Below, piece by piece: positions 208 through 32,500 of a DNA stretch of 64,000 nt. The translations under genes and the position numbers were made by a program. The DNA comes from Prostheceraeus crozeri. Its lineage: Eukaryota; Platyhelminthes; Polycladida; Euryleptidae. Numbering within the stretch: the stretch's first letter is position 1; each line of letters begins with the position of its first letter. A model generated the notes under the pieces. That model searched no databases. It was given only the letters and a program-made list of their open reading frames with translations, and was not told the origin of the DNA. The DNA lies in assembly GCA_907163375.1 (NCBI GenBank), contig CAJQUW010001470.1:124001-188000 (forward strand), written 5' to 3'.

Positions 208-213
208 TTTATT
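208..213 (-). promoter_or_regulatory. AATAAA polyadenylation signal overlapping the stop codon of the protease gene
   Basis: On the minus strand AATAAA spans 213-208 and contains the TAA stop at 211-209. It could end transcripts of the whole leftward gene block. Confidence 0.5.
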
Positions 214-1947: not shown

Positions 1948-1949
1948 GA

Positions 1950-2405
1950 TTAGAAGTTATAGCAGCGTCGTCGCTTAGCGCCTGATGAATGATTAGAACC
2001 TCTGCGACGTTTGCGTGAATGCCTTTTGACTGAAGATCGCACCTTACCAGCTCCGCGATGTTTCCTCCTTCCTTCATTCATTCGTTTAGGTGATTTCTTT
2101 CCTTGAGTAACACCAGCAAAGGTCTGCTTCAATGTTTTTAAACCGCGTTCCTTCCCGCAATTCAACAAACTGCTCTTAAAACTTCTACCTCTGGAAAGAT
2201 CACTAGCAACATCACCAGCAAAGCCAACGGCATTACTTAAAACATTTCGTTTTAAAGATCTACCGACATTGGATATGAGAGGTGCTACAACAGATTTCAG
2301 TGCACCAAGTATGCTACCTCCACGTTGGCGGCGAGCGCCGATGTAAATGTGTCCTCCACCACTTACATAGGAGGGTCGTGAATAAAATGAGGCAGTTGGA
2401 TTCAT
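1950..2405 (-). CDS. basic virion core/minor capsid-like protein with Gly-Gly-x site
   Basis: The ORF has 151 residues with an ATG at 2405-2403 and stops two bases before the capsid start. The N-terminus (SFYSRPSYVSGGGHIY) is followed by RRQRGGS and a short amphipathic stretch (ILGALKSVVAPLIS). The last 50 residues are dominated by Arg, Lys, Ser and Gly. The RQRGG-S sequence resembles a site for an adenain-type protease, so cleavage could free the amphipathic segment, as with adenovirus pVI or pX. A DNA-binding or membrane-lytic core protein is likely. The precise homology is not certain. Confidence 0.65.
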   Translation of the reverse strand: MNPTASFYSRPSYVSGGGHIYIGARRQRGGSILGALKSVVAPLISNVGRSLKRNVLSNAVGFAGDVASDLSRGRSFKSSLLNCGKERGLKTLKQTFAGVTQGKKSPKRMNEGRRKHRGAGKVRSSVKRHSRKRRRGSNHSSGAKRRRCYNF

Positions 2406-2540
2406 AGCTCAAACCCTAAACATTGTTAGTTACAACTTTGCATGAATCACTGTCGATCACTTAGATGAAAGATGTCGGCACGACGCATCCAAGAGTTCAT
2501 ACTTGAAGGATAACCAGTCCATTTAACAAGACACCATTCT

Positions 2541-3668
2541 TCACCTTGCTGTTTTTTTACATCGAATGATTTTCTCTACCAAATATGTTTCACTTTCAGT
2601 GACTACCTCAATCTCATCGCGGTAAAAGCTACCCTCAATTTCTTCATTATCGTAATCTTTCAACTTGTAGGTGGTTGGAGAGTCTTTTTGATTAATCCTT
2701 GATACTATAAATACCTCCTCTGTCCAATTCGGAAGGTACCCTTTAGCAAAAACACTTTTCACTTTTGAGATACGAACTTTATCACCAATTTTCACATCAC
2801 TTTTCACATGAGTGCGTTTACGTTGGAATGATTCGCGCACTTTATCTACATTGTCAGCATTTACATCTACTGGTCTGAGTCCAATAGAACGATGGATAGA
2901 GTGATTGTAGGCATGGAGTGTATCTTGTAGAACCTTTGTCCAATTTTGTGTCAAGTTGGCAGTAAAATGTCGCCACAAGCGATTTTTTAATGTGCGATTA
3001 AAACGTTCAACGAGTACAGCTTTATAAGCACTCTTTACACTAAACAACTCAATATCATGCCTCTCAAATAATCTTCTCACATGCTGATTTTCAAACTCTT
3101 TTCCTTGATCACTCTGAATTCTTTTTGGAATGCGACCTTCTCGAAAAATTGTTTGGAATGCTTTTGCTACTCCTTTCCCTTCTTTAGTTTTTAAAGGTTG
3201 AGCCCACGCATAACGCGAGAAGATATCAATGACGGTTAAAATAAAATTATTGCCCGAGTTATGTTTTGAAATGGAGGCGACATCGCACAAATCTGCTTGC
3301 CACTGTTCATCGATGTCATGAACAATATAATGGCGGGTGCGGTACTTCTTTTTCGCTTGTTTGTGGAGTGTATAGGTAGCCTGACCCTTTAACCATCGTT
3401 TCACTTGTGATTGTGGAAGACCACTCGCTTTTGATAATTTCTTGATATATGCAAATCCTGCCAGATGTTTTACATCATAATAGATTGACTTCAAACGTTC
3501 AGTCGATGACGACTGACTCTTTTTCCTCCTTCTCATCTTTTTGTTTTCTTGCCTTTCTACATTTACAACAACTGCAGCATTTAGCTTTAGCGGTTTTGCG
3601 ATCGTGTTCACATTGCTTAGGGGTTTCATTATGAGAGCTGGCGCAGCAAGTGCAAGTGACAACGACAT
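2541..3668 (-). CDS. Polinton-type integrase (rve DDE fold with C-terminal SH3/chromo-like tail)
   Basis: The ORF has 375 residues. The catalytic core begins near residue 120. The three acidic residues are Asp126 in EQWQADLCD, Asp187 in RIQSDQGKEF and Glu221 in VLVERFNRTLKN. An HTH-like basic region precedes it (residues 60-105). A C-terminal tail begins at KIGDKVRISK and ends with a short beta-rich domain. The product would insert the element into host DNA, leaving a short target duplication. The ATG at 3668 is the longest choice, but the first 45 residues overlap the Cys-rich ORF in another frame and have odd composition. Met45 (MRRRKKSQ) is an alternative start. The core is intact. Confidence 0.88.
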   Translation of the reverse strand: MSLSLALAAPALIMKPLSNVNTIAKPLKLNAAVVVNVERQENKKMRRRKKSQSSSTERLKSIYYDVKHLAGFAYIKKLSKASGLPQSQVKRWLKGQATYTLHKQAKKKYRTRHYIVHDIDEQWQADLCDVASISKHNSGNNFILTVIDIFSRYAWAQPLKTKEGKGVAKAFQTIFREGRIPKRIQSDQGKEFENQHVRRLFERHDIELFSVKSAYKAVLVERFNRTLKNRLWRHFTANLTQNWTKVLQDTLHAYNHSIHRSIGLRPVDVNADNVDKVRESFQRKRTHVKSDVKIGDKVRISKVKSVFAKGYLPNWTEEVFIVSRINQKDSPTTYKLKDYDNEEIEGSFYRDEIEVVTESETYLVEKIIRCKKTAR

Positions 3669-3720
3669 TCACCTCTGGCGGCTCATTACATGGCAAGCAA
3701 CACATCTGCTTCATATTCAT
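3499..3720 (-). CDS. small cysteine-rich protein (12 Cys in 73 residues)
   Basis: The ORF starts at ATG 3720-3718. It contains CC/CxC clusters near residues 7-11, 23-26 and 48-54 and a Lys/Glu-rich tail. The cysteine spacing suggests a metal-binding fold. Small Cys-rich proteins are known in Polintons, but I cannot match this one by name. It overlaps the end of the preceding ORF by about 35 bases and the possible N-terminus of the integrase by 170. One of the two readings of the 3535-3668 stretch must be the less constrained; the regular cysteines favour this one. Confidence 0.5.
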   Translation of the reverse strand: MNMKQMCCLPCNEPPEVNVVVTCTCCASSHNETPKQCEHDRKTAKAKCCSCCKCRKARKQKDEKEEKESVVID

Positions 3721-4348
3721 AGTCTGAGAACATGTATTTCCTGGGAGGAGCTGTTTTACGTTTTCCTTTTACTAGTTTTAGTGGTGATGTAGATCTACGT
3801 CGAGTTCTTCCTCTTGTTTGCTTAGTGAGTGTGGGAGGGGATGTAGCAGGTGACGTCTTAAACCAATTTGTTGGCATTTTCATCGTCTGAAGCATTGGAG
3901 CAGTAGCCACTGTTGAATCAAGTTCTTTCAATGTCTCATTATTTAAAGCAAATTTTGGCACATTATGCTTTTTCAATAGTTTAAGAAAGTATGTCCAACC
4001 AGGTGGAACATAGCCCTGACGGCGCTTTCTACGTGTTGCATACTGAATCAAGTCTTCATAACGTGAAGCATCAATCACTTTATTTTCATCTGTAATGATT
4101 TCTCCTCTATCATTTACATTGAGATGGGGTTCAATACTGTTGAAAAGAGATATGGCATGTGCGCGAGATGCTAAAGGTGTAGCAGTCGATACAGAGTCAC
4201 GCATCTTATTCTTCAAGTTTTTCAATTGCTCATCAGTTTCCGATTGTAATAATACAGCACGATGTGGATCTTTGATGTGAACATTTTGCTGATAATCTAT
4301 TTCTTTCCTATACATTTGATTTGCAAGAGGTTGCTTTACTTGCTGCAT
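3686..4348 (-). CDS. conserved structural-type Polinton/adintovirus protein
   Basis: The ORF has 220 residues from the ATG at 4348-4346; the few residues upstream would need a TTG start. The N-terminal half is polar and helical. The middle has an RYEDLIQYATRRKRR segment, then PPGWTYFLKLLKKHNVPK. The last 60 residues are Arg/Lys/Ser/Thr-rich. A helical segment followed by a PxGW motif and a basic tail is a layout I associate with a virion protein of these elements, but the biochemical role is unknown to me. It lies directly upstream of the Cys-rich ORF and downstream of the ATPase. Confidence 0.55.
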   Translation of the reverse strand: MQQVKQPLANQMYRKEIDYQQNVHIKDPHRAVLLQSETDEQLKNLKNKMRDSVSTATPLASRAHAISLFNSIEPHLNVNDRGEIITDENKVIDASRYEDLIQYATRRKRRQGYVPPGWTYFLKLLKKHNVPKFALNNETLKELDSTVATAPMLQTMKMPTNWFKTSPATSPPTLTKQTRGRTRRRSTSPLKLVKGKRKTAPPRKYMFSDYEYEADVLLAM

Positions 4349-4405
4349 GGCAGTCAATTGTACATATTCATCCTAAAGGAATAACAATCATGCGAGAATA
4401 AGAAC

Positions 4406-5023
4406 TCATAGTTTGTAGATAATCATGGGAGTTTTCAAAATATCACTTCGAAATCTAAATTCTTCCGGACACTCTTGCGTAAAGTCAATGAATAAGTAAC
4501 CGTATGGTTTTTCAGTAGCTGCTTGAAAAATTTCAATTAAGGCTTTTGATCCTCTGGGTGCAACTTGTCGCGCTAAAATTTCAAATTGACTTTTATCTCG
4601 CGGATTCTTGAAAATAGCATAATAGTGTGTATTCAGGTTTCGTGTACGAGCTTCTTTTCCATCAGGAAACAAATTTTGTGTGATATAGATGATAAAACAC
4701 CTTTTATGATGTGCTGCACGAGTGAACATATCTGTAACATCTTTGGAATTCTTACTTTCTTTTAATAAATCATCCAATACAACAACATCATTAGACTGAA
4801 GTTTATCCACTGGAATAATTCCTTCATGTCGAATAAAGTTGCGACTTTGCAATTCCTGAAACAAGGACAGTTGATAAATACCATAACACCAAATCACTCG
4901 ATTGATAGGTTCCTTAAACAACTCCCTTCTTTTATCCAATAAATTCAGCGTGAAAACAGTTTTACCTGCATGAGATGGACCTGATACAGTCAGAACTTTA
5001 TCACATTGAAGTCTGAAATCCAT
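4406..5023 (-). CDS. DNA-packaging ATPase (FtsK/HerA-type, A32-like)
   Basis: I choose the ATG at 5023-5021, which gives 205 residues; the longer reading needs a TTG start. The Walker A motif GPSHAGKT follows a beta strand (KVLTVS) 15 residues from the start. Walker B is VVVLDD and a sensor-type Gln is in FIIYITQNLF. Packaging ATPases of this group pump genomic DNA into preformed capsids and are a hallmark of Polintons, adintoviruses and other PRD1-lineage viruses. About 30 bases separate it from the next upstream gene. The frame is intact. Confidence 0.87.
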   Translation of the reverse strand: MDFRLQCDKVLTVSGPSHAGKTVFTLNLLDKRRELFKEPINRVIWCYGIYQLSLFQELQSRNFIRHEGIIPVDKLQSNDVVVLDDLLKESKNSKDVTDMFTRAAHHKRCFIIYITQNLFPDGKEARTRNLNTHYYAIFKNPRDKSQFEILARQVAPRGSKALIEIFQAATEKPYGYLFIDFTQECPEEFRFRSDILKTPMIIYKL

Positions 5024-5054
5024 TTTATTACTTTGAGATTCAACATTTGCATAA

Positions 5055-5411
5055 TTAACGCTTAGAGCCAAAGATATTACCCAATAGGTTGCCCACGGCA
5101 GGAGCTATCATTGGAAGTATTGCTGAAAGGAAACCGCCCTTTTGTGTTAGAGTTTTCCTCTTTCTTTGAAGGGTGACTTTAGGATTGGAGGTGAAACGCA
5201 ATTTCGTAGCATATCGCTTAAGTAACTTTCGTTGTTTTGGCGCTAATTTCTTCGTCCTCAACTTCCTCACATGAGAAATAATTTCACGGATGAATTTATC
5301 GTTAGCATGTCTTATAGCATTGTATCGCTGATTTTCTTTCATTCGTCGGAGAGCTTGAATGGCTGAAGAAAACTTTTGACTTTTACGTTTCGTCATTTTA
5401 CGTTTCGCCAT
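5055..5411 (-). CDS. basic core/membrane-active minor protein (pX/pVI-like layout)
   Basis: The ORF has 118 residues with an ATG at 5411-5409. The first 90 residues are very rich in Lys and Arg. They end in TQKGGF, followed by a hydrophobic, Pro- and Gly-containing tail (FLSAILPMIAPAVGNLLGN) and a final GSKR. The KGG-F site resembles a substrate of the adenain-like protease encoded in the same block. Cleavage would separate a nucleic-acid-binding part from a membrane-active peptide. This is the same design as the protein at 1950-2405, so the element may carry two proteins built alike. Confidence 0.6.
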   Translation of the reverse strand: MAKRKMTKRKSQKFSSAIQALRRMKENQRYNAIRHANDKFIREIISHVRKLRTKKLAPKQRKLLKRYATKLRFTSNPKVTLQRKRKTLTQKGGFLSAILPMIAPAVGNLLGNIFGSKR

Positions 5412-5462
5412 TTTCCGTGTTAGTCTTTGCTAAAACCTATCTTTACCACATTTGCATAGGTA

Positions 5463-5786
5463 CTAACTATTGCGACATAAGTGACACTCGAAATGAGCAA
5501 TATCACAGTGGTTACATTGGCAAAGTTGAATGCAATTACGTATGAAACAGCGTTGACAAAAAGCATGCTTACATCTCTTGAAGATCCGCTTTTCATTTCC
5601 ATCCTTTCGCTTACATACATCGCAACACATAGTTTCACCGTTACTGATGTCTATAGCAAGTCTTTTTGAAGATATGAATTTGCTAGCCTTTTCTAAATAA
5701 TAGACACATGTACAGAAGGAATATACTTCGAGAGTGAGCAGACATAACTCGAAAACCAGTTGTGCTACAATCAAGTACCACTGCAT
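5463..5786 (-). CDS. membrane-anchored RING-like zinc-finger protein
   Basis: The ORF has 107 residues from ATG 5786-5784 (two bases after the preceding gene's stop). Residues 1-30 are a strongly hydrophobic N-terminal segment, a signal anchor by its look. The second half carries CCDVCKRKDG, then FKRCKHAFCQRCF and a third Cys/His cluster (CQCNHC...CHLC). The C-x2-C...C-x-H-x2-C-x2-C order is that of a RING finger. RING proteins usually act as ubiquitin ligases, and viral ones redirect host protein turnover; that role here is inference. No linear homologue comes to mind. Confidence 0.6.
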   Translation of the reverse strand: MQWYLIVAQLVFELCLLTLEVYSFCTCVYYLEKASKFISSKRLAIDISNGETMCCDVCKRKDGNEKRIFKRCKHAFCQRCFIRNCIQLCQCNHCDIAHFECHLCRNS

Positions 5787-5788
5787 TT

Positions 5789-6199
5789 TCAATTTTTCTT
5801 TATGGAAAGTTGAATGTGAATATCTGAAATCGCTTCAATCACTAGACTGCTACCATGATGGTTAAATGCGTTAAGACGTTCAGCAATTTTTATCATATGT
5901 CTTTTAAAAAATTCTTCGGGGTGATCTACCACTTCCATTGAATAAGAAGCAAAATGGAAAGAGCGACTTTCTACCTCTTCCTTTCCAAAATGACGAAACT
6001 TAATTTTCGCAACTAATCGCGCCATGATAATGCTATCAGAGAATGTATTCATTAACTCTAGAAATAGAGTGCTAGCATCATCGACCACTGCTTCGATGTC
6101 GATCTCATCTTTATGAAAATTTATCACATAATCTTGAACAGCTCCTTTTAAACTTTGCCTATGAAAATGTAATGTTCCGCAGTCGTTTGAGAAAGACAT
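5789..6199 (-). CDS. conserved-looking protein of unknown function (136 residues)
   Basis: The ORF starts at ATG 6199-6197 and ends two bases before the RING gene. It is acidic to neutral, without membrane segments. The C-terminal half shows a helix (EEFFKRHMIKIAERLNAF) followed by a GSSLVIEAISDIHIQL strand. That helix-then-strand pattern reminds me of the N-terminal segment that precedes the polymerase domain in Polinton DNA polymerase B. If so, it would be a detached version of that segment. This is a weak resemblance; otherwise I do not recognise the protein. Confidence 0.5.
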   Translation of the reverse strand: MSFSNDCGTLHFHRQSLKGAVQDYVINFHKDEIDIEAVVDDASTLFLELMNTFSDSIIMARLVAKIKFRHFGKEEVESRSFHFASYSMEVVDHPEEFFKRHMIKIAERLNAFNHHGSSLVIEAISDIHIQLSIKKN

Positions 6200-6474
6200 G
6201 ATCGCTCTTTATCTAACCCATCCATTGCATGAAAACAACTCTTCTCATAGTAACATTTATTGAATAACGGTAACAAGCATGCATTATAAATCAATGATTT
6301 GAAAGAGATAAAATAGATACAGCTGGTAACTATCATACAGCGAGCAATGATAACCATACAGGACTTTGGCAGTGTTGAGGTAAGGAGGAAAGAAGCATTG
6401 GTTATTAACGTAGCTACTACAACGAACAGACAAAATAGGAACACACAAATCCTTAAAACGTTTCGTGACTTCAT
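6148..6474 (-). CDS. possible small membrane protein (overlapping ORF)
   Basis: The ORF has 108 residues from ATG 6474-6472. It has one strong hydrophobic N-terminal segment (residues 7-30) and a second weaker one near 40-60. It overlaps the exonuclease-like ORF by about 190 bases and the next gene by 52 bases, so it may be a shadow frame. It is listed because nested ORFs are common in such compact elements and because a signal-anchor segment right after the ATG is unlikely to be random. Confidence 0.28.
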   Translation of the reverse strand: MKSRNVLRICVFLFCLFVVVATLITNASFLLTSTLPKSCMVIIARCMIVTSCIYFISFKSLIYNACLLPLFNKCYYEKSCFHAMDGLDKERSCLSQTTAEHYIFIGKV

Positions 6475-6814
6475 GGTAATGTTGATTCACTCTACTATCC
6501 CAAGGCGGGAGCAAAATATCATCAATGATTAGATTGGGAAATACTTTCCTCTCCTTACCAGGATTATTACAAAAGATGCGTATAACATTGAAAGTAGCTA
6601 ACCATCGTTTAAAGTCAATAAGAAGAGCACTCTCACAAGAAAAGCCATAGTCTTGCAAATATTTCAGATTAAGTCCATGAATGTGTTTTCTCGCCCATTG
6701 ATCAACATTGGGATCGCAGTTGGCATGTTGATGATAGACACTAACGATCTGATATGTCCAATTGTTCATAGCAATAGCACTGAGCTCCTGTACAGGTTCA
6801 CCCTCACAATCCAT
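6284..6814 (-). CDS. DEDD-type 3'-5' exonuclease-like protein
   Basis: The ORF has 176 residues from ATG 6814-6812. It opens with MDCEGEPVQELSAIAM, which has the D-x-E arrangement of the first exonuclease motif of DnaQ/RNase T-type enzymes. The frame is open further upstream, and the hydrophobic strand IIIF just before the Met belongs to that motif. The real start is therefore probably in an upstream exon: a pyrimidine-rich TTCCGTTTTAG acceptor-like site lies at 6836-6846. A DIL...PPWDSR segment near residue 105 may hold a later acidic motif. A proofreading or nucleic-acid-processing role is inferred from the first motif only. Confidence 0.45.
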   Translation of the reverse strand: MDCEGEPVQELSAIAMNNWTYQIVSVYHQHANCDPNVDQWARKHIHGLNLKYLQDYGFSCESALLIDFKRWLATFNVIRIFCNNPGKERKVFPNLIIDDILLPPWDSRVNQHYHEVTKRFKDLCVPILSVRCSSYVNNQCFFPPYLNTAKVLYGYHCSLYDSYQLYLFYLFQIIDL

Positions 6815-6865
6815 AAAAATGATGATAGAAGCCTAAAACGGAATTTACACATCTAAGGAAACGTT

Positions 6866-7066
6866 CTATAACATATTACAAAATGAAGAATTACATCGAT
6901 GCTTTTCACGACAAAATACACAAATGATATGACGGCAACGAAGAAGTAAAATGTATCTAATAAGACCACGTCTACGACACTCAAAGCACATAAGCGAATT
7001 GTCATAGGGTAGAGTTAGGAAAGGACTAGTAATTCTCCTTCTTTGATTTGCGTTTTGATGCAGCAT
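6866..7066 (-). CDS. second RING-like Cys/His-rich small ORF
   Basis: From ATG 7066-7064 (or the internal ATG 6991-6989) the frame encodes MCFECRRRGL, then LLRCRHIICVFC and CNSSFC, again a C-x2-C...C-x-H-x2-C-x2-C order. Its upstream part overlaps the end of the 5' gene by about 40 bases in another frame. It lies directly in front of the acceptor-like site of the exonuclease-like ORF, so it could be an exon joined to it. As a stand-alone protein it would be only 40-66 residues. Confidence 0.4.
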   Translation of the reverse strand: MLHQNANQRRRITSPFLTLPYDNSLMCFECRRRGLIRYILLLRCRHIICVFCREKHRCNSSFCNML

Positions 7067-7800
7067 TCTTCTCCGACTTGCGCTTCGTACCACTGCTGTT
7101 AAGGATTTGATCAATTATGTCGTCCACGTTGGGTGGTTTTGGAATATATAGGATGGATTCCATATGCATGGAGAGAGAGGCTATTTTATTATCCTTGTGC
7201 CGGCCATAATATAGCCCATTCACTTTGAAAAGGATATCCCAAGTACCTTCTCCGAGCTCATCACATCTGATGGGTATTGAATGATCTCCATCCTTCTTAT
7301 AGTAAGTGCACCAATGTGATACTGGTAGGCAAATGTGATTACCATCCCAAATCTTTCTATAGGGAGTATCCTTGTCATCTCTCGCCTTCCAATCTTGAGC
7401 AAGAGGAGTAGGAATGTCCATATTTAATGTCACGTACTCCTCAATAATATCAAGTTGGTGGCGAATGTACGGACTCACGGGGATCAGTATGTAGTCCCCA
7501 TACTGATTGCGCATTATCTTGACATCCGTGGAAGGGAGCATTCCCGTTTGGAGTACTACGCTATGATCGTCATAACGCAAGACTTGTTTAAATTTACGCT
7601 GTAGCGGTGTAGGATTATGTACCTTGGTTGTTTCTTCCACTGGCCTCAGTTGTAGATGATCTGATCGTAGCGAACCTTGTAACGTTTGACCGCCATTTTG
7701 TCCTACTAGTGCAGAAGATGGAGTAGATGCCTGAAAATGAAAAAGATTGTATTAAGTTTACGTTCAAGGGAGGAGAGGGAGGAAAGTAGCGACTTACCAT
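7026..7800 (-). CDS. 5'-most leftward gene, unknown function, spliced directly after the ATG
   Basis: The body of the gene is an open frame ending at 7026 with no ATG in its first part. The only nearby ATG, at 7800-7798, is followed at once by a GTAAGT donor. An acceptor (pyrimidine tract then CAG) ends at 7731. Removing 7797-7731 puts the ATG in frame with the body and gives roughly 234 residues. The product is hydrophilic with a mixed beta/loop centre (HICLPVSHW, GTWDILFKVNGLYY). Its tail of alternating Lys, Arg and Ser looks like a nuclear-localisation signal. I do not recognise the family; a nucleic-acid-binding early protein is a guess from the tail and from its place next to the promoter. 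Confidence 0.6.
7731..7797 (-). other. 67-nt GT-AG intron separating the ATG from the rest of the gene
   Basis: The donor GTAAGT (7797-7792) touches the ATG. The acceptor is a T-rich tract followed by CAG at 7733-7731. The reading frame is open and in phase on both sides. Confidence 0.65.
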
Positions 7801-7960: not shown

Positions 7961-8830
7961 AGCTGATTCCAAATCTGAAATCCGTTTTCCAATCCGATGC
8001 TTCGTTTTGAAGCTACAGCCCAAAACGTCCCAAATTCTAACTCTGTCGTTTTTCGCCAATGTCCCAAACTCTTAAATGGCGTCTCACATCTAAACGAAGA
8101 CAGATAGGAACAAGCCGATTCTTTCAGTGAATTTGTCTCACTCTTAGCTTTCAAACGAGCTATGGCACGACAAAATCCGTCCACTAGAAGCCAAGATCGA
8201 AGCGAGTTCTCCACAGGGGGGGGGACGTCAGCGAAAATTTTTTCTCTCCGATTGCGTTCAAATTCACCATACCGATGCAGAATTTCACGCTGAATCCGAA
8301 TCTGGCCTCCGTTTTCTCATCCGATGGTTCGTTTGGGCGCTACACACCAAAACGTCCCAAATTCTAACTCTGTCGTTTTTTCGAAAAATGTTGAAAATTT
8401 TTTCTCACCGATTGCCTTGAAACTCACCATACAGATAGAGAATTTCACGCTGATTCCAAATCTGAAATCCGTTTTCCAATCCGATGCTTCGTTTTGAAGC
8501 TACAGCCCAAAACGTCCCAAATTCTAACTCTGTCGTTTTTCGACAATGTCCTAAAATCTTAAATGGCGTCTCACATCTAAACGAAGACAGATATGAACAA
8601 GCCGTTTGTTTCACTGAATTTGTCTCACTCTTAGCTTTCAAACGAGCTATGGCACGACAAAATCCGTCCACTAGAAGCCAAGATCGAAGCGAGTTCTCCA
8701 CAGGGGGGGGGACGTCAGCGAAAATTTTTTCTCTCCGATTGCGTTCAAATTCACCATACCGATGCAGAATTTCACGCTGAATCCGAATCTGGCCTCCGTT
8801 TTCACATCCAAGCACTCCTTCCACTCGAAA
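7961..8830. repeat. direct duplication with a 487-bp period plus a diverged third partial copy
   Basis: Bases from about 7961 to 8340 recur from about 8448 to 8800 with a constant offset of 487 and few differences. A shorter related block lies at 8280-8400. Each full unit contains the same Cys-free open stretch on the minus strand and a G9 run followed by ACGTCAGCG. The block begins 50 bases upstream of the TATA box. It could be the terminal-repeat region of the virus-like element or unrelated flanking repeats; the left end needed to decide is outside the window. Confidence 0.8.
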
Positions 8831-9035
8831 CAGCCCATTTTACAACCCAACATTCAGCAGATTGCACGAAAAACATCACACACTATAGCCTCAAGACAAA
8901 TCCTGGCGGTCGCCCAAGTCCACCACGACACTCTGGCGTTCCAGAGGGGGGGAGTCAGCGAACATTTTGTGAACGTGAACCAACCTGGCCGGCACACCAC
9001 GACAGACCACAACCTCTGCCGTTCCAGAGGGGGGG
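8213..9035. repeat. four G-run motifs (G7-G9) in similar contexts
   Basis: Runs of seven to nine G occur at about 8216-8224, 8703-8710, 8946-8952 and 9029-9037. The first two are preceded by CTCCACA and followed by ACGTCAGCG; the last two are preceded by CGTTCCAGA. The third is also followed by GTCAGCG. They look like repeated element ends. Confidence 0.55.
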
Positions 9036-9077
9036 GGCGCGCCGGTCGTAAGTTCGCCGTTTTCTTACTACTCTTAT

Positions 9078-9695
9078 TGAACCGAATTGACATTTTGGAC
9101 TCCATTATGTGGACCGATGAAGCCTACTTTTCCGTGAATGGGTATGTGCACCGAAAGAATTGTGTTATTTGGGGTGCAGAAAGACCCAAATTGACTGTTC
9201 AGTCAGCACTCCACTCTCCACAGGTGTGTGTTTGGATTGGATTTACTGCGAACACAATGCCTCCTCCTTACTTCTTCACTGGAACAGCGACAGGTGACAA
9301 CTATCGCTACATGTTGGAGAACCACGTTTTCCCGAACTGCATCGTAGACATCTGATTAATCAGGTGATATTCCAGCTAGATGGCGCGCCGCCTAATTTCT
9401 CGAAAGCGGCTAGGGATTTCTTGTCCGCTGAAATACCCGATACACGAATAATATCTCGAGGATTTCCCCAAGCATGGCCTCCTCGCTCACCAGATTTATC
9501 ACCTCTGGATTATTACCTGTGGGGTACAATGTTCACAATTTCGTTCCAAACAACTTGAACCAATTGAAAGAAAGAATCAAAGAAATCGCAAGAGGCATCG
9601 GTCAAGATGAGCTACAGCGTGCAGTTCATCATCTTCCACATAGACTAGAATGTGTTATTGATCAAGATTGTGGACCATTTGAACATTTGTTATGA
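9078..9695 (+). pseudogene. mariner/Tc1-superfamily transposase, C-terminal half, broken
   Basis: Catalytic motifs appear in order. WTDEAYFSVNG carries the first Asp, FQLDGAPPNF the second, and WPPRSPDLSPLDYYLWG the third, with 37 residues between the second and third Asp (DD37D-like spacing). The DNA-binding N-terminal half is missing, a stop follows at 9353-9355, and the frame shifts near 9525, after which the end of the protein is readable to FEHLL. The fragment abuts the G-run repeats on the left. A possible right terminus lies near 9930-9955. This copy cannot encode an active enzyme. Confidence 0.85.
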
Positions 9696-13488: not shown

Positions 13489-13551
13489 TAATGGATAGAA
13501 GGAAAACGTCACAAATCTCTCCCGAAATATATATAATGCCGAATAAACACA

Positions 13552-14441
13552 CATTTTTGATTGCCTTCATGCGGAATTACCTTTGCTCTCGAACCCAATG
13601 TGTACGCTGGAAAGAAGATCGGAGCAGCATTATTCCTGTGATTAGTGGCATTCCTCAGGGCTCCTCGTTTGGCCCACTCGTTTTTGGATTTTTCATTTCC
13701 AGCCTTCAGTTATGCAATAATGAAGACATGCTATTGACGAAGTACGCCGATGATGTCTTATTGATGGCCAAAGTTAAGAAGACAGATTCATGCAGCAGGA
13801 TTGCCAGCGGCTATCAAGAGATCTTGAAGTGGACTGAGGCGAATATGATGAAAGTCAAGGAAGAGAAATGCCAACAATTCTTTGTCGCAAAGTCACAACA
13901 TCATGATTTTTCCAAGTTCATCATGCACGGAATTCCTTTAAAGAAAACACTCACGTTTCTCGGTGTAACTTTTGATGAGAAATTAAATTGGAACTTCCAT
14001 GTTGACAGTATCACAAAAAAAGCATCGTCGCGGTTATCAGTTTTAAGATATCTTAAACCCTTCCTGTCAAAGAACGAGCTCGTAATTGTGTACAACTGCA
14101 GTATAAGAAGCGTGCTAGAATATGCAACACCAGTCCTGTTCAACATCAGTGCAGTTTCCTCGCATCGGATGAACATTGTCCAGAACAGGGCCCATAGAAT
14201 AGTTTGTGGATCTTCTGATTGTCAATGTGGACATTTTCTTCCTCTAGAATATCGTCGACTCATGTTGTCTACCAAGCTGTTCAAATCGTTTATCAGTGAC
14301 CACTCTTATCCGCTTCACCATCTTTCTCCTGACATCAACCCGAACTCCAGATCTTTTCGAATGCCTGAATGCTCTTCAAAAATGAGACAAAATTCATTCA
14401 TTGTGGCCATGATACGCGCATTTAACCGAGGATTGTGCTGA
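13552..14441 (+). pseudogene. non-LTR retrotransposon reverse transcriptase, 5'-truncated
   Basis: The frame runs open to a TGA at about 14439-14441. It shows GIPQGSSFGPLVF (RT motif region), the catalytic YADD box in LLTKYADDVLLM, then KCQQFFV, LGVTFDEKLNW and a thumb/C-terminal region rich in Leu. The order matches LINE RTs of the Jockey/CR1/L2 group. The N-terminal RT motifs and endonuclease are missing. The reading frame seems to start earlier only because it runs into the foldback arm. Behind the stop, 110 bases of 3' UTR end in (ATT)n. Confidence 0.87.
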
Positions 14442-20500: not shown

Positions 20501-23500
20501 CTGAGATCCACTTCTCCATCTCCATCTTTGTCCAGCATGTTGATGAGTTCATTCAATTGTGATTCGGACAAGGGTGTTTCAATTTGTTTTAGACCATCAA
20601 TAAACTCGTCTCGTGTCAAGCTCATCGATTGATCTTTATCTAGACTTTTAAATAAATCGACCAATCGAAGGCGCTGTTCACTCATAAACATGAGAAGAAG
20701 CTCCAATGGATTCTGGTCTCCAAATTTGTTACCGGTTGGAGTCTGCCGATGAAATGAAAGTTTAAATAGAGCGATTCAAGATAGATGAGAGGCAAGCATC
20801 TTAAACATGCGCTTGCCATCTCAAATTGATTATTTTCAGCCTCCTAATTGTAAACCCTTGCAATGTACTTTGAAGCACTGATGCTCTAATCAAAAGTTAA
20901 GACATCAAGTCAAGACACGATGCCATTCATACATCAGTTACTAAATAATGGCTTTTTCACCAAATTGTTCAATAGCCCTCAGTTCACATTCATCTCCACA
21001 AGTTCAGGACCGATATCTCACTCTGTTTACTTGTTTGTAAAATATCTTCAAATCCACCTTAATTGGTCATAAAAAAAGAAGTACAGAGCATCATATCAAT
21101 ATGCAGCTATAGGCCTATAGATTAAATACCGCAGGTCTGCATTCATTGATTATTGAGATTCAGGGGACATTTTAAGCAATTATGTCTACTTGACAAGCCC
21201 TTAAAAAAGCACATTTGAATTTTTTAGCATTTAGGGAAGTAATCAGAAATACTTTATTTTATCCCTCTTACAATATTGTTTCATGCATTATTACCAGCAT
21301 TAACACAGGTACTGCACAACAGATATACATGTGTTGTATGTACAGCATACAATGCTACATACACTCAATGTAAGACTACAAGCAATGTGATTCTTTTGAA
21401 ATAATGACACCTATAGATAAAATATTTTATTATTATGAATAGACTGTGATAGAGATAGAGACAATAAGTATAACATGCAGAGTGACCTACTGAATACCTA
21501 CTGATTAAGTTAACATGGCTAAAAGAGATCGCGCTCCAACATATAGGTAATTTATTTTTGAACAATCGATTGATAATAATCAATTGGTGAAATGGAAATA
21601 TTTGTTGATCATCAGTATGATCTTATTATGAGCGTTTTCTTGCTTTGAAGTCACTCAGATTCCAGAAGTAGCTCGCTGAGTTATGACATTTTTAGAGCCA
21701 CCTCTTACAGAATGTATTATTTTTGAAAGCTGACGTACAATATTAATAACTGTTGATAATTATCTAAGTCAAGTCAAGGCTTGGCGGCAAAATTCGATAT
21801 AGGATATGCATATCCGATTTTAAGTTATAAAATTCGCTCGAAAAGGTCTGCATAATTGTTTTGAACAGTATGTAAAGTCGGTTTACAATGGAATAGATAA
21901 TTTAAGACGCTATTTCCTCCTAATCACTTGACTGACTATTCTATCCGACAGTTCATCGCTTCTAGCAATCCATATAATTCAACATCTACAAGGAAGCGAT
22001 AAATAATAATTTGAGATATTGGGAGTGGTAATTTCTTCGGATGAAAGATTATTCAATTGATAATGGATGATACTGGAGTAATCTTTTATCAAAGCGAATC
22101 CAAAACAAAGCTCACATTTACACACATCATTTACTTTGAGAAAGATGAAACTCAACTTACCTTCATTGCATCTTTTCCTTTTGTCACGTAGCCATATCGA
22201 GTTACAAAGTTCGGTTTCCTTTGTTTCACGTCGCCTACTAAACCAACAAACTTCTCGTTGACGGGGATATCCTAAAAAATGAAAATTTCATCTTAAGGTA
22301 CATTAATTCAACAAAACAAGAATGAGCTATCTTTAACCGTCAATTGAGCTTTGGAGTGAGCTAAAGCTGAAATGTGTTTTAATAAGATTTCCTTGAAGTT
22401 TCGCTAATACTGAATCGAATCGAAGCTTTATTGCCAATTTTTCTGATGTGAAGCATGTCTGACGATCTAAACAATGTTTCAATGCATAATCATAGAACTC
22501 AGAATATATTATTAGCTTCATCGTAAGTACAAATTTAACCGACCAATTTGCCAATTGAAACTTGAATGAATTACAAGAATCAGCAACTTCATTGAATGAC
22601 AACATAATATACATTTAAACTAAAAATATCGCATATTTTATCGGCGCTGTGGCCTTGTGGTACTCTGCGTCCGGGAGATCTTAGGTCAAACTTCAATCGG
22701 GGCAAACCTAGGACTTTTAAAATAGGGGCGCTCTGCACTGGTAAGCTACTAGCACAAAAAGAATGAGAATGAGATAAATAATAACTCGGCCACAATAAAC
22801 AAAGGTTGAACCATGCCTAGTGTGCGTCTGAGAATAAACCAGCTTTATTTATTTTTAATTTCTAAGTTATTAACCGCGGGCCCGGTCTAATCACGGCTTC
22901 GACATTGATCTTAACGGAAACTTAAATAGGTAATACATAAATGCACATGATTTTAAATAAACTATGAGTGAATAAAAGTAAATTGTGAGCATATCAGACA
23001 TTTGACAGAGGAGCGTGAGCTATACTATTGTTTCTCCAGTTTCCTGTAAAAGCCACTACGATCGCAGTTTTTGTTCCATTTGTTATCCATACCAAAGTTA
23101 GAGTAATTCCAGCATGTTGTCGCTTTTTACATGAAAGATTTTGACAGATGTGCATGAGCTTTCACTTCTGTATTCACCATTCTGCCTCTAATGCACTGGT
23201 TCCCAACCTTTTCATGCTGCGTACCCCAAAGTAGAAAATCATGGGATTTTTCATTATTCCGCGTACCCTCACCTATACATATAAAAAATAGCAAGAATTC
23301 AATCATACTAAAATTTAATTGCACGTAGAAATATACGAAATTCGCAATTCAATAACACAAAAATTTAACTAGGCGTAACTGATGCGTGCTTGTGTAACAA
23401 CACAAGCGCAGCGAAAGCCATGTTTCAGCATCAAACGAGCACTTTGTTTGCTTCTAATCATTACTATGGTTGAGAATCCGGTTTCGCATAAGTATGTGGT

Positions 23501-26500
23501 CCACACCCGTCGGCTGGGTCGATCAAGCGGTCAAAAATGCGAGCCCTTAGCGACCACTTTTTTTGACATCTACTATCACATCTAAGAACTACTACATAGG
23601 TCTCTCAAATCATCTATTGGCTATTCGCCTGCAGGACCAATTTTTAAAAAAATTCAAATTTCAAATATTAAATTCCATCATACAATTTTTTGATTTCTCT
23701 GTATCTGGTTGCAAATGATTTGTACTGTCATATTTTGATAAAGTCTTATCTAGAAATACCCAAAGATTATGCAGAAACACATTCTAACAAATTTAGACCT
23801 ACTTAGCAGTCAAAATTCAAATATTTTTGAAAAAAAATCAAATTTTAAATTTGAATTTCGTGCTATATTTTTTTTCATCTCTATAACTGCATAGATACGA
23901 TTTCTATTGCCATTATCTGATAATTATGTATTCATAGTTGTTTCAGATTATTCAGAAGCACATTTAAATGCACTAATAAAGAGAAATTTAACGATCAAAA
24001 TTCGAAATTTCTAATTAGAAAAATGAATTCCAAAATATTTTTCACATTATCTCTGTTTTTGTGAGTGCAATATTGAGGCGTAGGCTTATATCACATCTGT
24101 TATGTACATTAATGTACTACATTGATAGCAACGACAATATATCAAACAATCATATGATGATATTGTTAGACATATATGCAACGTGGCGGTTCATAAGTTA
24201 CCGACATAATGATATTCTGGTTAACAAACCTATGCGAATTTTATGACATTATATATAAATTTGTTATCTACATCAGGGGTTCTCAACTCAAAATTTCGGC
24301 GGGCCACATTTCCTGGCATTTTTCTAATGAATATGCTACCGGGCCAATCGACTGAATATATGACCAAAGAACCCCTGTATGCCTATTATATTGTTTATAC
24401 ATATGTACCGTTATTAGTTAGAGTTGACTAGCGCCTATAGGCCTATTTATGTTTCATTAATAATCCTTCTGAAAAAAATATTTTTGTTTTGTGATGATTA
24501 AGTAGAGGTAGGGTATGTACCTATTGGCATAATTAGAAGGTACTATATAAGCTTACCTAGCTTATAGGATAGATCTGTAACTCTGTATACATGTATACTT
24601 TTACAAAACGCATGTGGTTTTGAAAATTTATTGCCAGTGAGAGTTTATCGTTTTTGTTGAAACCTAATGCTCATTCACAAAATATGCAACGCTTATAGAT
24701 AAAGAGAGGGGGAGGCATACATTCATTGGATGAATGCTAACGTTTGGGAAATATTACATATTATGTATGCATGCGTACATGAATATAAACACTCCTTGTT
24801 TAAATTGAGAAGAATGATGATAATCCAATAATGATATTATAATTATAAATTGCAACAGAAAAATAGAAATGGCTTCATCCAAAACGTCATAAATGCTATT
24901 AATTGTGTCAGTGAGAAACTTGTCCAGGCTTTGCTTTTGTCAACTTGACGAATCTTGGTTTCAAACCGGTTAATGCAAGACGCATCATGTTTTGTACATT
25001 TGCGTTAGTCAAGCGTGATCGATATTTGTTTTTATGTAGTTGAGTGTAGAGAACGAAGACTCACAGTGGTAAGTTGATCCGAACATTGCAAGAAGCCTAA
25101 GTCCACCTCGTCGAATATCTGCATACTTCTCATCCTCAGGAATGTCAAACCACATATCAACCATAGTTGTTGCACCTCTAACGCATTCTTGAACAACACC
25201 ACTATTTCTCAGCGCAATCAATTGCAGCTCACCAACAGCTCCATTCACTCCAAATTTTTCGAATTGACCTGCACAGATTTCAACATTTGCTTCTACAGGA
25301 TTTCTCATAAATCCTATCAAATGAATAAGGTCATTAAAATCTTGAAATCGATTGTCAAAATCGATTTGAACTTCAGCTATGTAAGTTTTTAACAATTGAC
25401 ATGTATGATGTTTGCTACGGCTGCAGCTTGCTTCACTCTTCTCTACAGAGCTTCTCATTGAATTGAGTGGGAGAAATAGCGCGCGCACATCACGTTTGTC
25501 GCCGTGCGCTACAAATTAGCTGTTCTTAAACTGATAGACAAGCTCAATTGACAAGCCGCCAAATATACGCATGTCTTGCTCACTCGTTTCATCGCGGGCC
25601 ACCGCCAACAAGCTTGCGGGCCACAAAATGGCCCGCGGGCCACGTGTTGAGAACTCCTGATCTACATGACTTTATGCACTGCAGACGTATTTTTTCTTGT
25701 ACTGTGATTATCACAATATCCATTTCCTTCATGGGAACTCATACGAAAAGATGCTTCGGATATAACATTAAAGATCTTGTTGTTGTTTGACAAACTGTGT
25801 AGATTGTCATTGCCGCTGAGTGTTCAGCGGCAATGATATGATGACAGCTATGTTTTGAGGGCGTCAATGGCAAATTAGAGGGCCGCGTTAGCGGCCCGAC
25901 AATTTGCCATTGACAGCCCGAAAAATGTAGATGTCATAATCATTGTATGCCATGTTGCGAAATATTTCTATGGTTTCATTTCCAGGCCATGAATTTTCCG
26001 GGCCGTTAATGAATTTCTGGGCATTATCAAAGATATCAGTCTTATATACATGGTATACAATGAAAACCGAACGCCTGAAATTCTGGTCTCTCCTTCTCAC
26101 TGACACCGCAGTAACTCATTGATTTGATCACTATTCACTCGCGCAGCAGCATAGAGTTCAGATGTCCATGCTATTGTCCTCTCCTAACATAGATATCTAA
26201 TAATCCGACCTCTATGCACTACAGTATCTGCTCTGTCAAGAATATCTGTCTGTCTGATAATGGTATAAAACAGGATGAATTCTATTCATGAACGCCGTGT
26301 CAACATAATTGATTTTTATGCGCGAGCTTCCAAACTGTTTATCAGCAGCAACTGGTGCGCTTGATCACAATTAACAGTGCCAATATTCTAACGATACGAC
26401 ATTACGACTTGATTCTTATCGCGTGTTATCTTTTGTGATGGCACATGCACATACAAACAAAGCTAGAAGTCATGAAGAAAACAGATATAGAGTATGCCTT

Positions 26501-29500
26501 ATATGTATGGAAAAAGGAGACTGTCCAATCACGGATGCCGTTTTACGAAGAATCCGAGCTTTCTTTATAGAAAACTATACAACAAACGATGACTGCCTAC
26601 CTGCTGCCATTTGCTCGAATTGTCGCTCAAATCTTCTCAAAATTGAAAGTGGTGTGAAGGAACGGGGTATCTTGCCGGAAGTTTATGATTTTAGCCTTGT
26701 GAAACCAGCTTTTGAAATAAACACGCGATCAGTTGGCTATACATTTTGTGAATGCTTGATATGTCAAATTGCCAGAAAAAAGGAACGTGTATACCAAAAC
26801 GTAAAAAAGGTCGTCCTACTATCAAGTCCCCTGATTCAATGATGTCTCATGATACAAGAAATAGTGTGCAAGTTATATGCGTTCAATGCAAATCTCCGGT
26901 TGGCCGTGGTATCACTCATAAATGTACAGTCAGCACTCTTCGACAAAATATAATAGATATGTGCAAAGATCCTGATAAACGTACGCAGGATGTTGTAGCC
27001 AGCAGTATGATTTCACATAGAAGGAGAGAATCATCTTCTTCTGAGCGACATCATGAACCAAAACTTCATCAGCATTTAGATCTCGAAACAAGAGGGCCAA
27101 ACCGAATCAACCTTGCTATAAATGATCAATCACCAAGAAGCATTGCTGCGAAAAATCTGAGCAATTTACAGTTGTCCCTGGGAGCTTCGAACTCCGCCAT
27201 GATTCACAAGGTTATGCCGTTCCTGCGAAGTACTCTTGGTAAAAGTGTTATTGAGTCAAACAGTGATGATTATTTTCGAAGTCGAGATAGTGCTCTCAGT
27301 GACTTGTTCTCTTTAGAATTCCAAGTATTTGATGAGATATCTAAGCCTGTTGTGTTTTGTAATGACTTAGTCCAATTAATCCAGCACATCTGCAATGATC
27401 GACAGATTGACAGCAGCCACACTAACCTTCAATTGAAATTAGGACTCGACGGTGGTGGAGGCTATTTCAAGATTTGTATGTCCATACGTACCTCAATTGA
27501 CAATGTTTCATCGTCTTCTGCGACAGGATTTTTGGATTCGAGTGTCAAACGAATTATAATACTGGCAATTGCTCCTGATATAAAAGAAAGTTACACGGTT
27601 ATTATTGGACTTACTCAAAGTAGCTAATCTGGATTTCAAATACACCTACGCAGTTGATCTTAAATTGGCTAATATTGTTGCTGGGATACAAGCACACGGG
27701 AGTTCATACCCATGTGCTTCCTGCAGTTGTCCGAAAATAAAATTTGGGACTCCTTCTTCAGGAAGCTATCCTCTTCGCACAATAGGATCAGTTAAAACCG
27801 AGGCAAATAGGTATCGTGATACTGGAATTGCAAGATCATGCCAGAGCACAACGAATCCCTCATTAACCTTCTATATCCCAGACTGATAAGATATATAAAT
27901 TTTTCTGTTCTTGATTATTATTTTTAATAATTTATTACTATATTTTTTACGCATATAGCATATAAAAACTCAAACCGTAATGATTTCCTGTGTTATATAG
28001 CAATGTCCATAGGGAACTGGGGATGTGATCGCATGATATTGATAGAAATACAAGGAAAAGGAAAAAAGTTTCAAGAATATACCGGACCGGAACAAAAAAA
28101 AAAACGTCTCCTGTTTATATTTATGAATTATGAATATCATTCAGTAATATAAATATTACACTAAAACATCTCAAGAAAAGAAGCAGAATTAGATAAAAAA
28201 GCTTAAGTTCGTACTTTTACTTTTTGTTTTATTTTGTAAAGCAAGCAGTCAATTCCTCATCGGTGTGCAATACAAAGCATTTTACACATTGTCACACATT
28301 GTCGATTCCTTCGCGTAAGCCGTCTGCATTCATTGTAGCGTGTAATGTTTGTCCCACTAATCCACCTAAACTCACTCAGGCAGCGGAACGCTGCGCAGGG
28401 TGGCTCTTTGGCGTCCTCCACCGAGTATATGTATCATAACACACAAATCTATCAAACTCTGAACTCTCTCTGAATTTCGATGTGTGTGTTTTTCACTGCC
28501 ACCACCACCTGCAGCCACACCACCGAATAGTTGGACGATATGCACCTAAATATGTAATAAAAAAAATAATGGGTCCATTAGATCGACACCACCATTTGAT
28601 ACTGTGTACTGTTTTGATACTGTCGGGTTGCGAATTTTGTGCAAGTCCGTTCTTTCCCATGTCCTTGGTGACATATGAACAGTCGACATCGTATGTACGA
28701 CTGAAATGTACGACCACTTTTGTCTCACACTTGTACAAGCTCGTTCGTTCCATCTTCTTGTAGTTCGTTTTTTTTGTTTGTTTTGTTTTTTGCAATCGTT
28801 TTTTTGTTTTTTTGTTCGTTTCATTTTTGTTCCGACCTGTGCCTGTGGCTTGACCTGGACTCACACTCACCCGCTGGCTAAGCTGAAAGGCTAGTACTGA
28901 AAGTGTCGAAATTAAAAAAAAAAAATCTCTGAAATCTTCACTCTCCTCACATTCAATATAATTCTGACTCTATGCATCATTTCATTTCATTTGTAAATGA
29001 CCCTACTCTTGGTGAAATTACTACAATCCTGTGGGTGGATAAAATCTGATCTGGAATCCACAGAATGGTACACATTGCCTGTTAAATGTCCATATTTTGT
29101 GATAATTCACCCACAATTTCTTACATACATTATTTTTTTTAGGATTTTTTTTAGATTAGAGTTAGTTAGTTTACAAAAATTTTTTAAAAATTAATGCAAA
29201 ATAAATTAAATTAATAAAACATCAATTTTTTATAAATCAAAAAAGAAAAATTAAGAAAAAAATTTTAAAAAATAATTTAAAATAATTATATTAATATTAT
29301 ATCTATATAGTAATTATCAATAGTAAAAAGTAAAAATATTAGGTAAAAATCATTTTAAAAAAACTAAAACAAAAACAAAAAAAGCAGCACTAAAATGAAA
29401 AAAATGATTTTATAGATAATTAAATTGTTGTGAGGTTAATCAATGGAGAAGATCATGAAATGATAATCAGCCTTCTCGCACCTCCGGAATTACACTTAAT

Positions 29501-32500
29501 GTTGCGTGTATTCAACAAAGTTTTTCGCCAAATGGAGTCATTATCCCCACGTTCTGCTGAAGTTTGTCGGCAGTGGGTTTGTCGCGTAGGAATAACTCGC
29601 CCAAAAATGCATTCCGGCGAATTTACAGGCAACATGTGCCGCTTGTTGCTGATGAAAACTGATATGCTCCAAGCAATATGCGAGTCAAATGGTTGTCTGG
29701 AACTTGTTCCCTACAAGCAATTACTTCAAGAGTTCAATCGTGTTCGTATCACTTGTTTCGGACAAGAATTGGACCCAAACTTCAATTGTTCTATTAAAGC
29801 ATTTGAAAAAAGTTACAGCGAATTGCCCATTAGTGTCACTACCAGCGTCCACATTGTAACGAAGCATCTCATACAGTTCTGCAAACTAAAACATTCAGCT
29901 CTTGGACCATATAGTGAGCAGGCCTCTGAGTCCGTTCATTCGGACTTCTCGGCAATGTATTGCAGTAGCAGCAAAGTTGGAGAATCAAATCCAAAATACG
30001 GCAACAGTCTTTTGGAATGTGTTGTGCGCTATAATGGACGCCACTTGTAAATGGATGACTTCAAACTTTATATTCATGACTGTTTCATTTGCGATATTGC
30101 TAATGACATTTTATAAGTTGATGTCAATGTATTAGTTAATATAAGTGACTCAAAATTGAAATGCATATATTTTTTGGTACTGCGAATGAGGGCTCGTCAG
30201 GGATATCGGGGTTCGTAAATAAAACCTATTTTTATTAATATTAAAAAGTATTTTGATCGTTAAATTTCTCTTTATTAGTACATTTAAATGTGCTTCTGAA
30301 TAATCTGAAACAACTATGAATACATAATTATCAGATAATGGCAATAGAAATCGTATCTATGCAGTTATAGAGATGAAAAAAAATATATCATGAAATTCAA
30401 ATTTAAAATTTGATTTTTTTCAAAAATATTTGAATTTTGACTGCTAAGTAGGTCTAAATTTGTTAGAATGTGTTTCTGCATAATCTTTGGGTATTTCTCT
30501 AGATAAGACTTTATCAAAATATGACAGTACAAATCATTTGCAACCAGATACAGAGAAATCAAAAAATTGTATGATGGAATTTAATATTTGAAATTTGAAT
30601 TTTTTAAAAAATTGGTCCTCCTGGCGAATAGCCAATAGATGATTTGAGAGACCTATGTAGTAGTTCTTAGATGTGATAGTAGATGTCAAAAAAAGTGGTC
30701 GCTAAGGGCTCGCATTTTTGACCGCTTGATCGACCCAGCCGACGGGTGTGGGTCGAGTTGGTGGTCGCTAACTAGCAAAGGTTGCTCAAGGACAGATCAT
30801 GACAATCCAATGCGGAATACGCAGAAAGTTAACAGTTCAACTGACCCATGAACAGGGAGTTCCAAAAGTAAAATTGAATTATAATAAATCTCCCATATCA
30901 TGCGTACCCCTCAAAAGTCCTTCACGTACTCCCAAGGGGTACGCAACCTCTGCTCTAATAACATGTGTCGTGTTTTGATGTGATGAGAAGATCCGAATAA
31001 AATTATGCCTTTTGAATATCAAAACTCGATTTATGGGATAGATGTTTACTACAATAGAAACGATAAAACTTGCTTTCTGAGGTAAATTCAATAAAATACT
31101 CGGCTTATCTCGCATGTACAAGTACAATTGTAAAAGTACGTCTCGCCAACTTGACCAAACTCACTGATTAGCTCATTCTGCGCGCTGATCTTAATTGCAC
31201 ATAAGGTAGACCTAATTGTATTCTCCTGCATGTTGCAAAGGAGAACTCCCCATGTCACAGCCGCAATTCGCTCCGATGGCATTTGGTGACGACTGTACCA
31301 ACTCACAAAGGACTCTTGTTATTTGGGTAATGTGCTCGGGACAAGGTTGGACCTTGGGTTTAACATTAGCCTTGAGGGATCTTGGATCCAAGGTATTTGG
31401 GTTGCAAAAAGTAAACTTGTCCCAAGTTTTAAAGAATGCTTTTGGTCTATGAATGCTTTGGACTAATTTTTGGTGATGTTCAAATATCATGTCAGCTACT
31501 CAGATTAAGCAAAATTGACATTTTAGATACATAGCATCAGTGATGACATACATGTACACAACATGCAGGTATGTGACTGGTTCATATGTAAACCACTGCA
31601 ATTTAGTACAATTACAATGCTGCACCATGGATAGAGCTTTGTTGTAGGGATGACTACTATGATCACGTAATCATTATATCTTTGATTAAGAAATACTTCA
31701 TTTTTTTCTGTTAATCGTTTTCGATTTCTATTAGTAAGTATTAGGAATGATTTTCGTATTCGCTTCCCACTACACTGTATGCCGAGTTCAGCAAGGTTTT
31801 CGCATCTCATGCAGCAGGCACAGTAGTTGCAAATTTATATTCAATTAGTGCATCAACTCGGCACAGTAGAGTAAAAGGAAGTTCCCAGGGATAGAAAGAT
31901 AACAAGACAAGGCTATCAAAAACTTTTGTAAAAGCAAGCGTAAAAATTCAGTTTGCATATGGAAGTTGGGCAACTAGACGAGCATGTAGATCGAAATCAC
32001 CTAAATAGAATGACATGTTTCTTCGCAGGGGCCAATGCATTATCAGAAATGACCGTAGATGGAAAACCTTATACTTAAGGCAAGCATATATTAAATTCCT
32101 TATTACATTCTGATGTTTCAGTACATGCATTCACTAGCAATGAATGCATGAATGACATGAAAATAACTTATGACAAAATAATAGAGTTTAAAAAAACTCG
32201 CTAATACACTACTTAAGGGCTGATTGACGATTATACATCTAATTTTGTAAATTGTGGATCTAATTTGCTGTGCACGGCAAATATATGAACATCTGAAAAA
32301 ATTGTATAAGTTGTATAACTACTTCCCTTTCCATCGGACATCTTTTCTGGATGATCCTAGCGGTTTATGCGAAATCAAAACAGCAAGATAAATTATTAAA
32401 CGAAATAATCGAATCAATTCTGAAATACGTTTACTGTCAGTGCTATCCTCAAAAGTCATTAGAATCAATCAGTTTCGTTTCATTTCGTGAACCTACGGAA

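Follow-up and report, generated by a model that had tools for sequence, protein, structure and literature searches.

A broken transposon with a RAG1-like transposase core in the flatworm Prostheceraeus crozeri is probably a member of a new Chapaev family

To which group does the long DNA transposon belong that lies near the middle of a 64,000-nucleotide stretch of the Prostheceraeus crozeri genome (assembly GCA_907163375.1, contig CAJQUW010001470.1, positions 124,001 to 188,000; hereafter the window)? The initial annotation had described a transposon with near-identical inverted repeats of about 500 bp, CAC ends and a GGTC duplication, and alignment of the ends and inspection of the flanks confirmed this. 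It had also held that the element does not match any well-known superfamily and might be an undescribed system, which we no longer maintain because the testable hallmarks of Chapaev are present. The element most likely represents a new family of a known transposon group; specifically, we place it, with a probability of roughly 0.87, as a broken copy belonging to a new Chapaev family of DNA transposons (CMC/CMCT clade, kin of Transib and RAG1). This strikes one 'unknown superfamily' off the list and adds a family of RAG1-like transposons. RAG1 is the enzyme that assembles antibody genes, and the Chapaev transposase is its distant cousin.

The two terminal inverted repeats (TIRs) of the window copy, 23502–24001 and 30250–30750, align with 493 identities, six mismatches and three gap columns over 502 alignment columns, and the element runs from CACACCCG to CGGGTGTG with GGTC on either flank. 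With up to three mismatches allowed, just two occurrences of its terminal 31-mer were found in the window, against a mean of 0 expected from 100 shuffles. With the left TIR as query, a search of the 2.05-Gb assembly gave 40 scored matches (from 161 first-look candidates), all at 97–100% identity; two of the 40 are the ends of the window copy itself. The other 38 fall at 30 places, with both ends present at 25 and a single end at five within the stretches taken, so that at least 26 two-ended copies of a RAG1-like transposon family are present in one assembly of ∼2 Gb; the copies examined below are these best TIR matches. CAC is found at 51 of the 52 ends of the 26 elements, the exception being TAC at one end of copy L017. 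The length of 7.25 kb given in the initial annotation is correct for the window copy and is not the usual size, since 21 of the 25 other copies measure 3.9–4.1 kb. Two more are 4.68 and 4.71 kb long, and the last two (L016 and L028, 2.86 kb each) share one internal deletion and have different target duplications; they form a small non-autonomous subfamily.

The 4-bp duplication had been expected to recur, and it does so exactly in 18 of the 25 other copies; its length nevertheless varies, with 5 bp in four copies (L010, L014, L018 and L028). No exact duplication was found in L017, L030 or L031, the last of which would have 5 bp if one mismatch were allowed. With the window copy added, the counts are 19, four and three of 26. 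A C precedes the duplication in 15 of 23 cases and a G follows it, again in 15 of 23; this preference was seen before it was tested, and the p-values of 4e-6 each are therefore post hoc, with an assumed base frequency of 0.205. From the duplication counts and the flanking C and G, we conclude that a loosely palindromic site is used, with a transposase stagger that is mostly 4 bp and occasionally 5 bp.

The broken transposase gene was read through as 679 residues, and this translation retrieved 24 relatives among 5,607 candidates, the best of them 63% identical over the full length; 20 of the 24 have 664–721 residues. The 3′ piece alone had found 14 relatives among 42 candidates, and a profile search found at least 24 among 7,989 candidates scored, 12 of these being new identifiers. 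None was confirmed by tblastn in the viral contigs and genome contigs scanned. In the alignment of the 24 read-through relatives (numbered on protein P0015), D335, D408, C427, C430, L495 and H496 are invariant, while H615, H620, E637 and E641 are conserved at 90% or more, with departures in P0036 at the C-terminal end and in P0037 at the H positions. The D/D/E residues and the C(2)C, LH and H(4)H motifs are thus present across the set.

In PDB, the best fold and sequence matches of the transposase core are RAG1, RAG1L and HzTransib. Identity to RAG1 and HzTransib is 11–16% in structural alignments whose matched rows cover residues 224–680, and the core is predicted to adopt a RAG1-like fold that combines C2/H2 zinc elements with an RNase H fold. 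The spacing from D408 to C427 is 19 residues, equal to the aligned D-to-C spacing of RAG1. The catalytic E is more likely to be E641, which aligns with the second E in the HzTransib ASE stretch; here we take the RAG1 triad to be D600/D708/E962 and the HzTransib E to lie at that stretch, PDB entry titles naming E962Q. Smaller queries were less informative: the 3′ piece alone gave two PDB matches, both at chance level, and a first profile placed HzTransib at the top, but at E 0.068 and with unrelated chains at similar values. Zinc sites at the N-terminus and a core of the RAG1/Transib type, both noticed in the initial annotation, are therefore borne out by conservation and fold matches. It had named a clear hidden Markov model match to a known superfamily as what would speak against its reading, and none appeared: no Pfam model scored above cut-off for the pieces of the broken gene or for any of the 24 relatives, the matches below cut-off being DUF1280 (4/24), zf-AD (5/24), DUF7635 and others. 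The other objection it had named, differing duplication lengths among copies, does apply, through the four of 25 with 5 bp.

The Chapaev superfamily reportedly goes back to Kapitonov and Jurka in 2007 and is a member of CMC. Its hallmarks, in the accessible part of PMC4079192, are duplications of 3–4 bp, CAC/GTG termini and a D/D/E transposase that carries C(2)C, LH and H(4)H. Each of these is present, duplication length being represented by the 19 of 26 elements with exactly 4 bp, and they favour assignment to Chapaev. Chapaev elements further carry a Chapa zinc domain at the N-terminus, to which two subgroups add a RING finger; within the excerpted text of PMC4411706, these are described as known from no other transposable elements.

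Several points weigh against this placement. Because the whole CMCT clade has the C(2)C and H motifs (PMC12730594, excerpt), the call within the clade depends on four features, namely duplication length, termini, LH and the N-terminal domain; the N-terminal multi-cysteine domain is a putative equivalent of Chapa, and the second zinc-like motif may be a remnant of the RING finger. The placement inside Chapaev is a probable one made on hallmarks. The 5-bp duplications in four of the 25 other copies recall Transib, for which 5 bp is given (PMC8355894, excerpt), more than the 3–4 bp of Chapaev. The lack of a Pfam model above cut-off in the 24 relatives counts on the same side. Finally, grouping differs by author, Chapaev being a clade of the Transib superfamily in the available part of PMC4411706 and lying within EnSpm in Repbase according to PMC4455052.

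It seems improbable to us that the element is instead of the Transib or RAG1L type, with like chemistry and 5-bp duplications. RAG1, RAG1L and HzTransib do head the fold and sequence matches, yet this is not decisive because no PDB match carries the Chapaev name; the 5-bp duplications that would suit such an element are confined to four of 26 elements against 18 of the 25 other copies with 4 bp, the sequence resemblance to RAG1 and HzTransib is low, at the identity given above, and the canonical Transib transposase, as far as the excerpt of PMC4411706 describes it, is a core without a further domain. We would give a similarly small chance to a separate, undescribed CMCT lineage between Chapaev and Transib with mixed 4- and 5-bp duplications, which would accommodate both that mixture and the empty Pfam result; the testable Chapaev hallmarks are nevertheless present, and the Pfam absence says little, since Pfam may hold no Chapaev model. 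An assembly artefact, or a chance inverted repeat beside unrelated gene pieces, can be regarded as refuted by the presence in one assembly of 26 elements that agree in structure and differ in their flanks, and by full-length relatives of the joined gene in other sources.

The N-terminal zinc domain has the pattern C-x2-C, C-x2-C, C-x-C-x2-C, in which C20, C23, C59, C104, C106 and C109 are invariant over 27 rows and C62 is conserved at 90% or more; a second zinc-like motif, C-x2-C...H-x-C, is likewise found in the 24 relatives. The top fold matches of the domain are ZAD (zf-AD) domains, and zf-AD matches at the same position in five of the 24 relatives, with 20.3, 15.7, 15.1, 13.2 and 11.2 bits, where the cut-off is 28. 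The gathering score was reached by none of the 24, and the window's own piece gave no zf-AD match at E ≤ 1. The domain also has an LP-x-x-IC-x2-C pattern that we take to be ZAD-like. These three lines of likeness to the ZAD of insect zinc-finger factors make it conceivable, though we put the idea forward only tentatively, that a ZAD fold is adopted by this domain, whose position matches that of Chapa and of the RAG1 N-terminus. If so, the ZAD zinc-finger factors, a large class of insect transcription factors, would carry kin of one transposase dimerisation domain, as would the V(D)J recombinase, and a fold and a dimerisation role would be suggested for a part of the protein outside the matched RAG1 and HzTransib structures. 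Among the papers listed from the open-access library searched, none was found to link ZAD with Chapaev, and in the excerpted text of PMC10547256 ZAD is not tied to transposases.

The initial annotation had called the long ends young. We surveyed TIR variants over the 52 ends of the 26 elements and found 20 substitution variants present in exactly two ends; in 15 of these the two ends belong to one element, compared with 1 in 51 for random pairing. Of the remaining five, four are shared by matching ends of two different elements and one by opposite ends of two. A further five variants each mark both ends of just two elements, whose duplications differ. At 24 commoner polymorphic columns, a set that includes alignment-edge columns beyond the TIR, the left and right ends of an element agree in 500 of 624 comparisons, whereas 2,000 re-pairings of ends gave a mean agreement of 456 and a largest of 483. 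Mean TIR identity is 99.1% within elements (26 pairs) and 98.7% between them (325 pairs). The 86 variants confined to a single end count against complete homogenisation. The likeliest explanation is that the two TIRs are occasionally copied onto each other, through gene conversion or repair after excision; the shared private variants may also stem from the assembly, if reads of one TIR were used to build or polish the other. Since the ends seem homogenised, their identity does not date the insertion, and inferring youth from it is unsafe. The apparently homogenised 500-bp ends are a warning against dating such elements in this way.

The window copy is long because three pieces have inserted into it, as seen when it was aligned against eight of the 25 other copies. 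The hAT-like insert is absent in six of the eight, in which 24273 joins 25660 with 8 bp overlapping, and the other two are without the whole region; we presume its hAT identity from the 8-bp duplication, the end sequence and hAT-like motifs, and its open reading frame (ORF) has no Pfam match. The 221-bp insert, which resembles a miniature inverted-repeat transposable element, is cleanly absent in five of the eight (L011, L012, L013, L026 and L035), the other three having deletions there. The 1,569-bp insert is absent in all eight, with 4 bp overlapping; it contains low-complexity stretches and has the ends CCT...AGG, and a clear inverted repeat was not seen in it by eye. Without the three inserts and their duplications, the window copy would be ∼4,055 bp. 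Its transposase reading is split by the 1,569-bp insert and disrupted by frame changes at ∼26775 and ∼27605–27624 (+ strand). Because of the frame changes and nested insertions, we consider this copy an inactive, defective Chapaev-type transposon. Coordinates are collected in Table 1.

Table 1. Features of the transposon copy, in window coordinates.
Feature	Position	Strand	Basis or remark
Target-site duplication GGTC, left and right	23498..23501 and 30751..30754		Identical 4-mers
Left TIR, 500 bp, CACACCCG terminus	23502..24001	+	Self-alignment; genome matches at 97–100%
8-bp duplication ATCTACAT bordering hAT-like element	24266..24273 (left), 25660..25667 (right)		Perfect repeat
Nested hAT-like insertion, 1,386 bp, ends CAGGGG...CTCCTG, ORF 25009–25488	24274..25659	-	Other copies lack the insert
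Hairpin-containing insertion, 221 bp, MITE-like, ~6 bp duplicated	25837..26057		Palindrome 25831–25945
Transposase gene, 5′ part (N-terminal zinc domain, second zinc-like motif, both D codons), broken by two frame changes	26438..27866	+	Motifs conserved in relatives
First D codon	27448–27450	+	Conserved in relatives
Second D codon, then C(2)C	27656–27658	+	Conserved in relatives
Insertion of 1,569 bp inside transposase gene	27867..29435		TTAA duplicated at 27863–27866 and 29436–29439
Transposase gene, 3′ part (LH, H(4)H, E region)	29436..30050	+	Motifs, relatives
Candidate catalytic E codon	29928–29930	+	E region of 3′ gene part
Right TIR, 501 bp	30250..30750	-	Alignment to left TIR

Elsewhere in the window, the look of the translations leads us to assume a Maverick/Polinton-type ORF run at 209–7640 (-), with protease-, capsid-, integrase- and packaging-ATPase-like proteins and polymerase pieces. 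Pieces at 8762–9355 (+) and 58715–59767 (-) presumably derive from mariner/Tc1 transposase, and we take 13491–14441 (+) to be a reverse transcriptase of the non-long terminal repeat type.

An intact member of the family would be ∼4.06 kb long, with 500-bp TIRs starting CAC and one apparently intron-less gene. The transposase, of ∼679 amino acids, would comprise a ZAD-like N-terminal zinc domain, the second small zinc-like motif and the RAG1-like core. A frame open across all 679 residues was found in none of the 25 other copies, the longest being 671 residues in L034, which covers residues 1–670 of the read-through; the initial annotation had predicted autonomous relatives, and relatives with open frames do exist as database proteins, though not among the copies examined here. 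No second gene was evident among ORFs of at least 150 amino acids, up to three per copy being examined in the 25 copies. The paired CAC ends, the 4/5-bp duplications and the predicted RAG1-like core with its conserved acidic residues suggest how such an element might move. A transposase dimer would pair both ends, and its D/D/E site would cut at CAC, possibly leaving hairpins on the flanks as in RAG and Transib cleavage. The ends would then be joined to target strands with a stagger of 4 bp, or occasionally 5 bp, with C-N4/5-G preferred. Defective copies may be mobilised in trans, as suggested by the different sites at which the deletion derivatives L016 and L028 lie.

Among known systems, Academ was considered and was dropped when the Chapaev motifs were found. 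Chapaev3, which includes Merrow, Garfield and Conan, has the same motifs and was ruled out because the duplications here are of 4–5 bp without TWA. The 3-bp TWA duplication of Chapaev3 (PMC4079192, excerpt), between A and T, fits none of the 23 exact duplications (19 of 4 bp, four of 5 bp). N-RAG-TP of Aplysia, from the accessible part of PMC8355894, was also considered. With RAG1, RAG1L (ProtoRAG) and Transib the element shares the core fold and the conserved D, D, C2 and H2 positions; it differs in its 11–16% identity, in its mostly 4-bp duplications and in having no evident second gene. RAG and Transib have CAC-type ends, a likeness to the CAC ends described here. The mixed 4/5-bp stagger and the C-N4/5-G preference should be useful for comparing Chapaev, Transib and RAG. 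With Chapaev itself it shares the CAC...GTG ends, duplications of 4 bp and a D/D/E transposase carrying C(2)C, LH and H(4)H, in which a cysteine-rich zinc domain precedes the core. It differs from Chapaev in forming, as far as seen, a family of its own, in the 5-bp duplications of a minority of copies and in its 500-bp TIRs, which we list as a difference although published Chapaev TIR lengths were not found.
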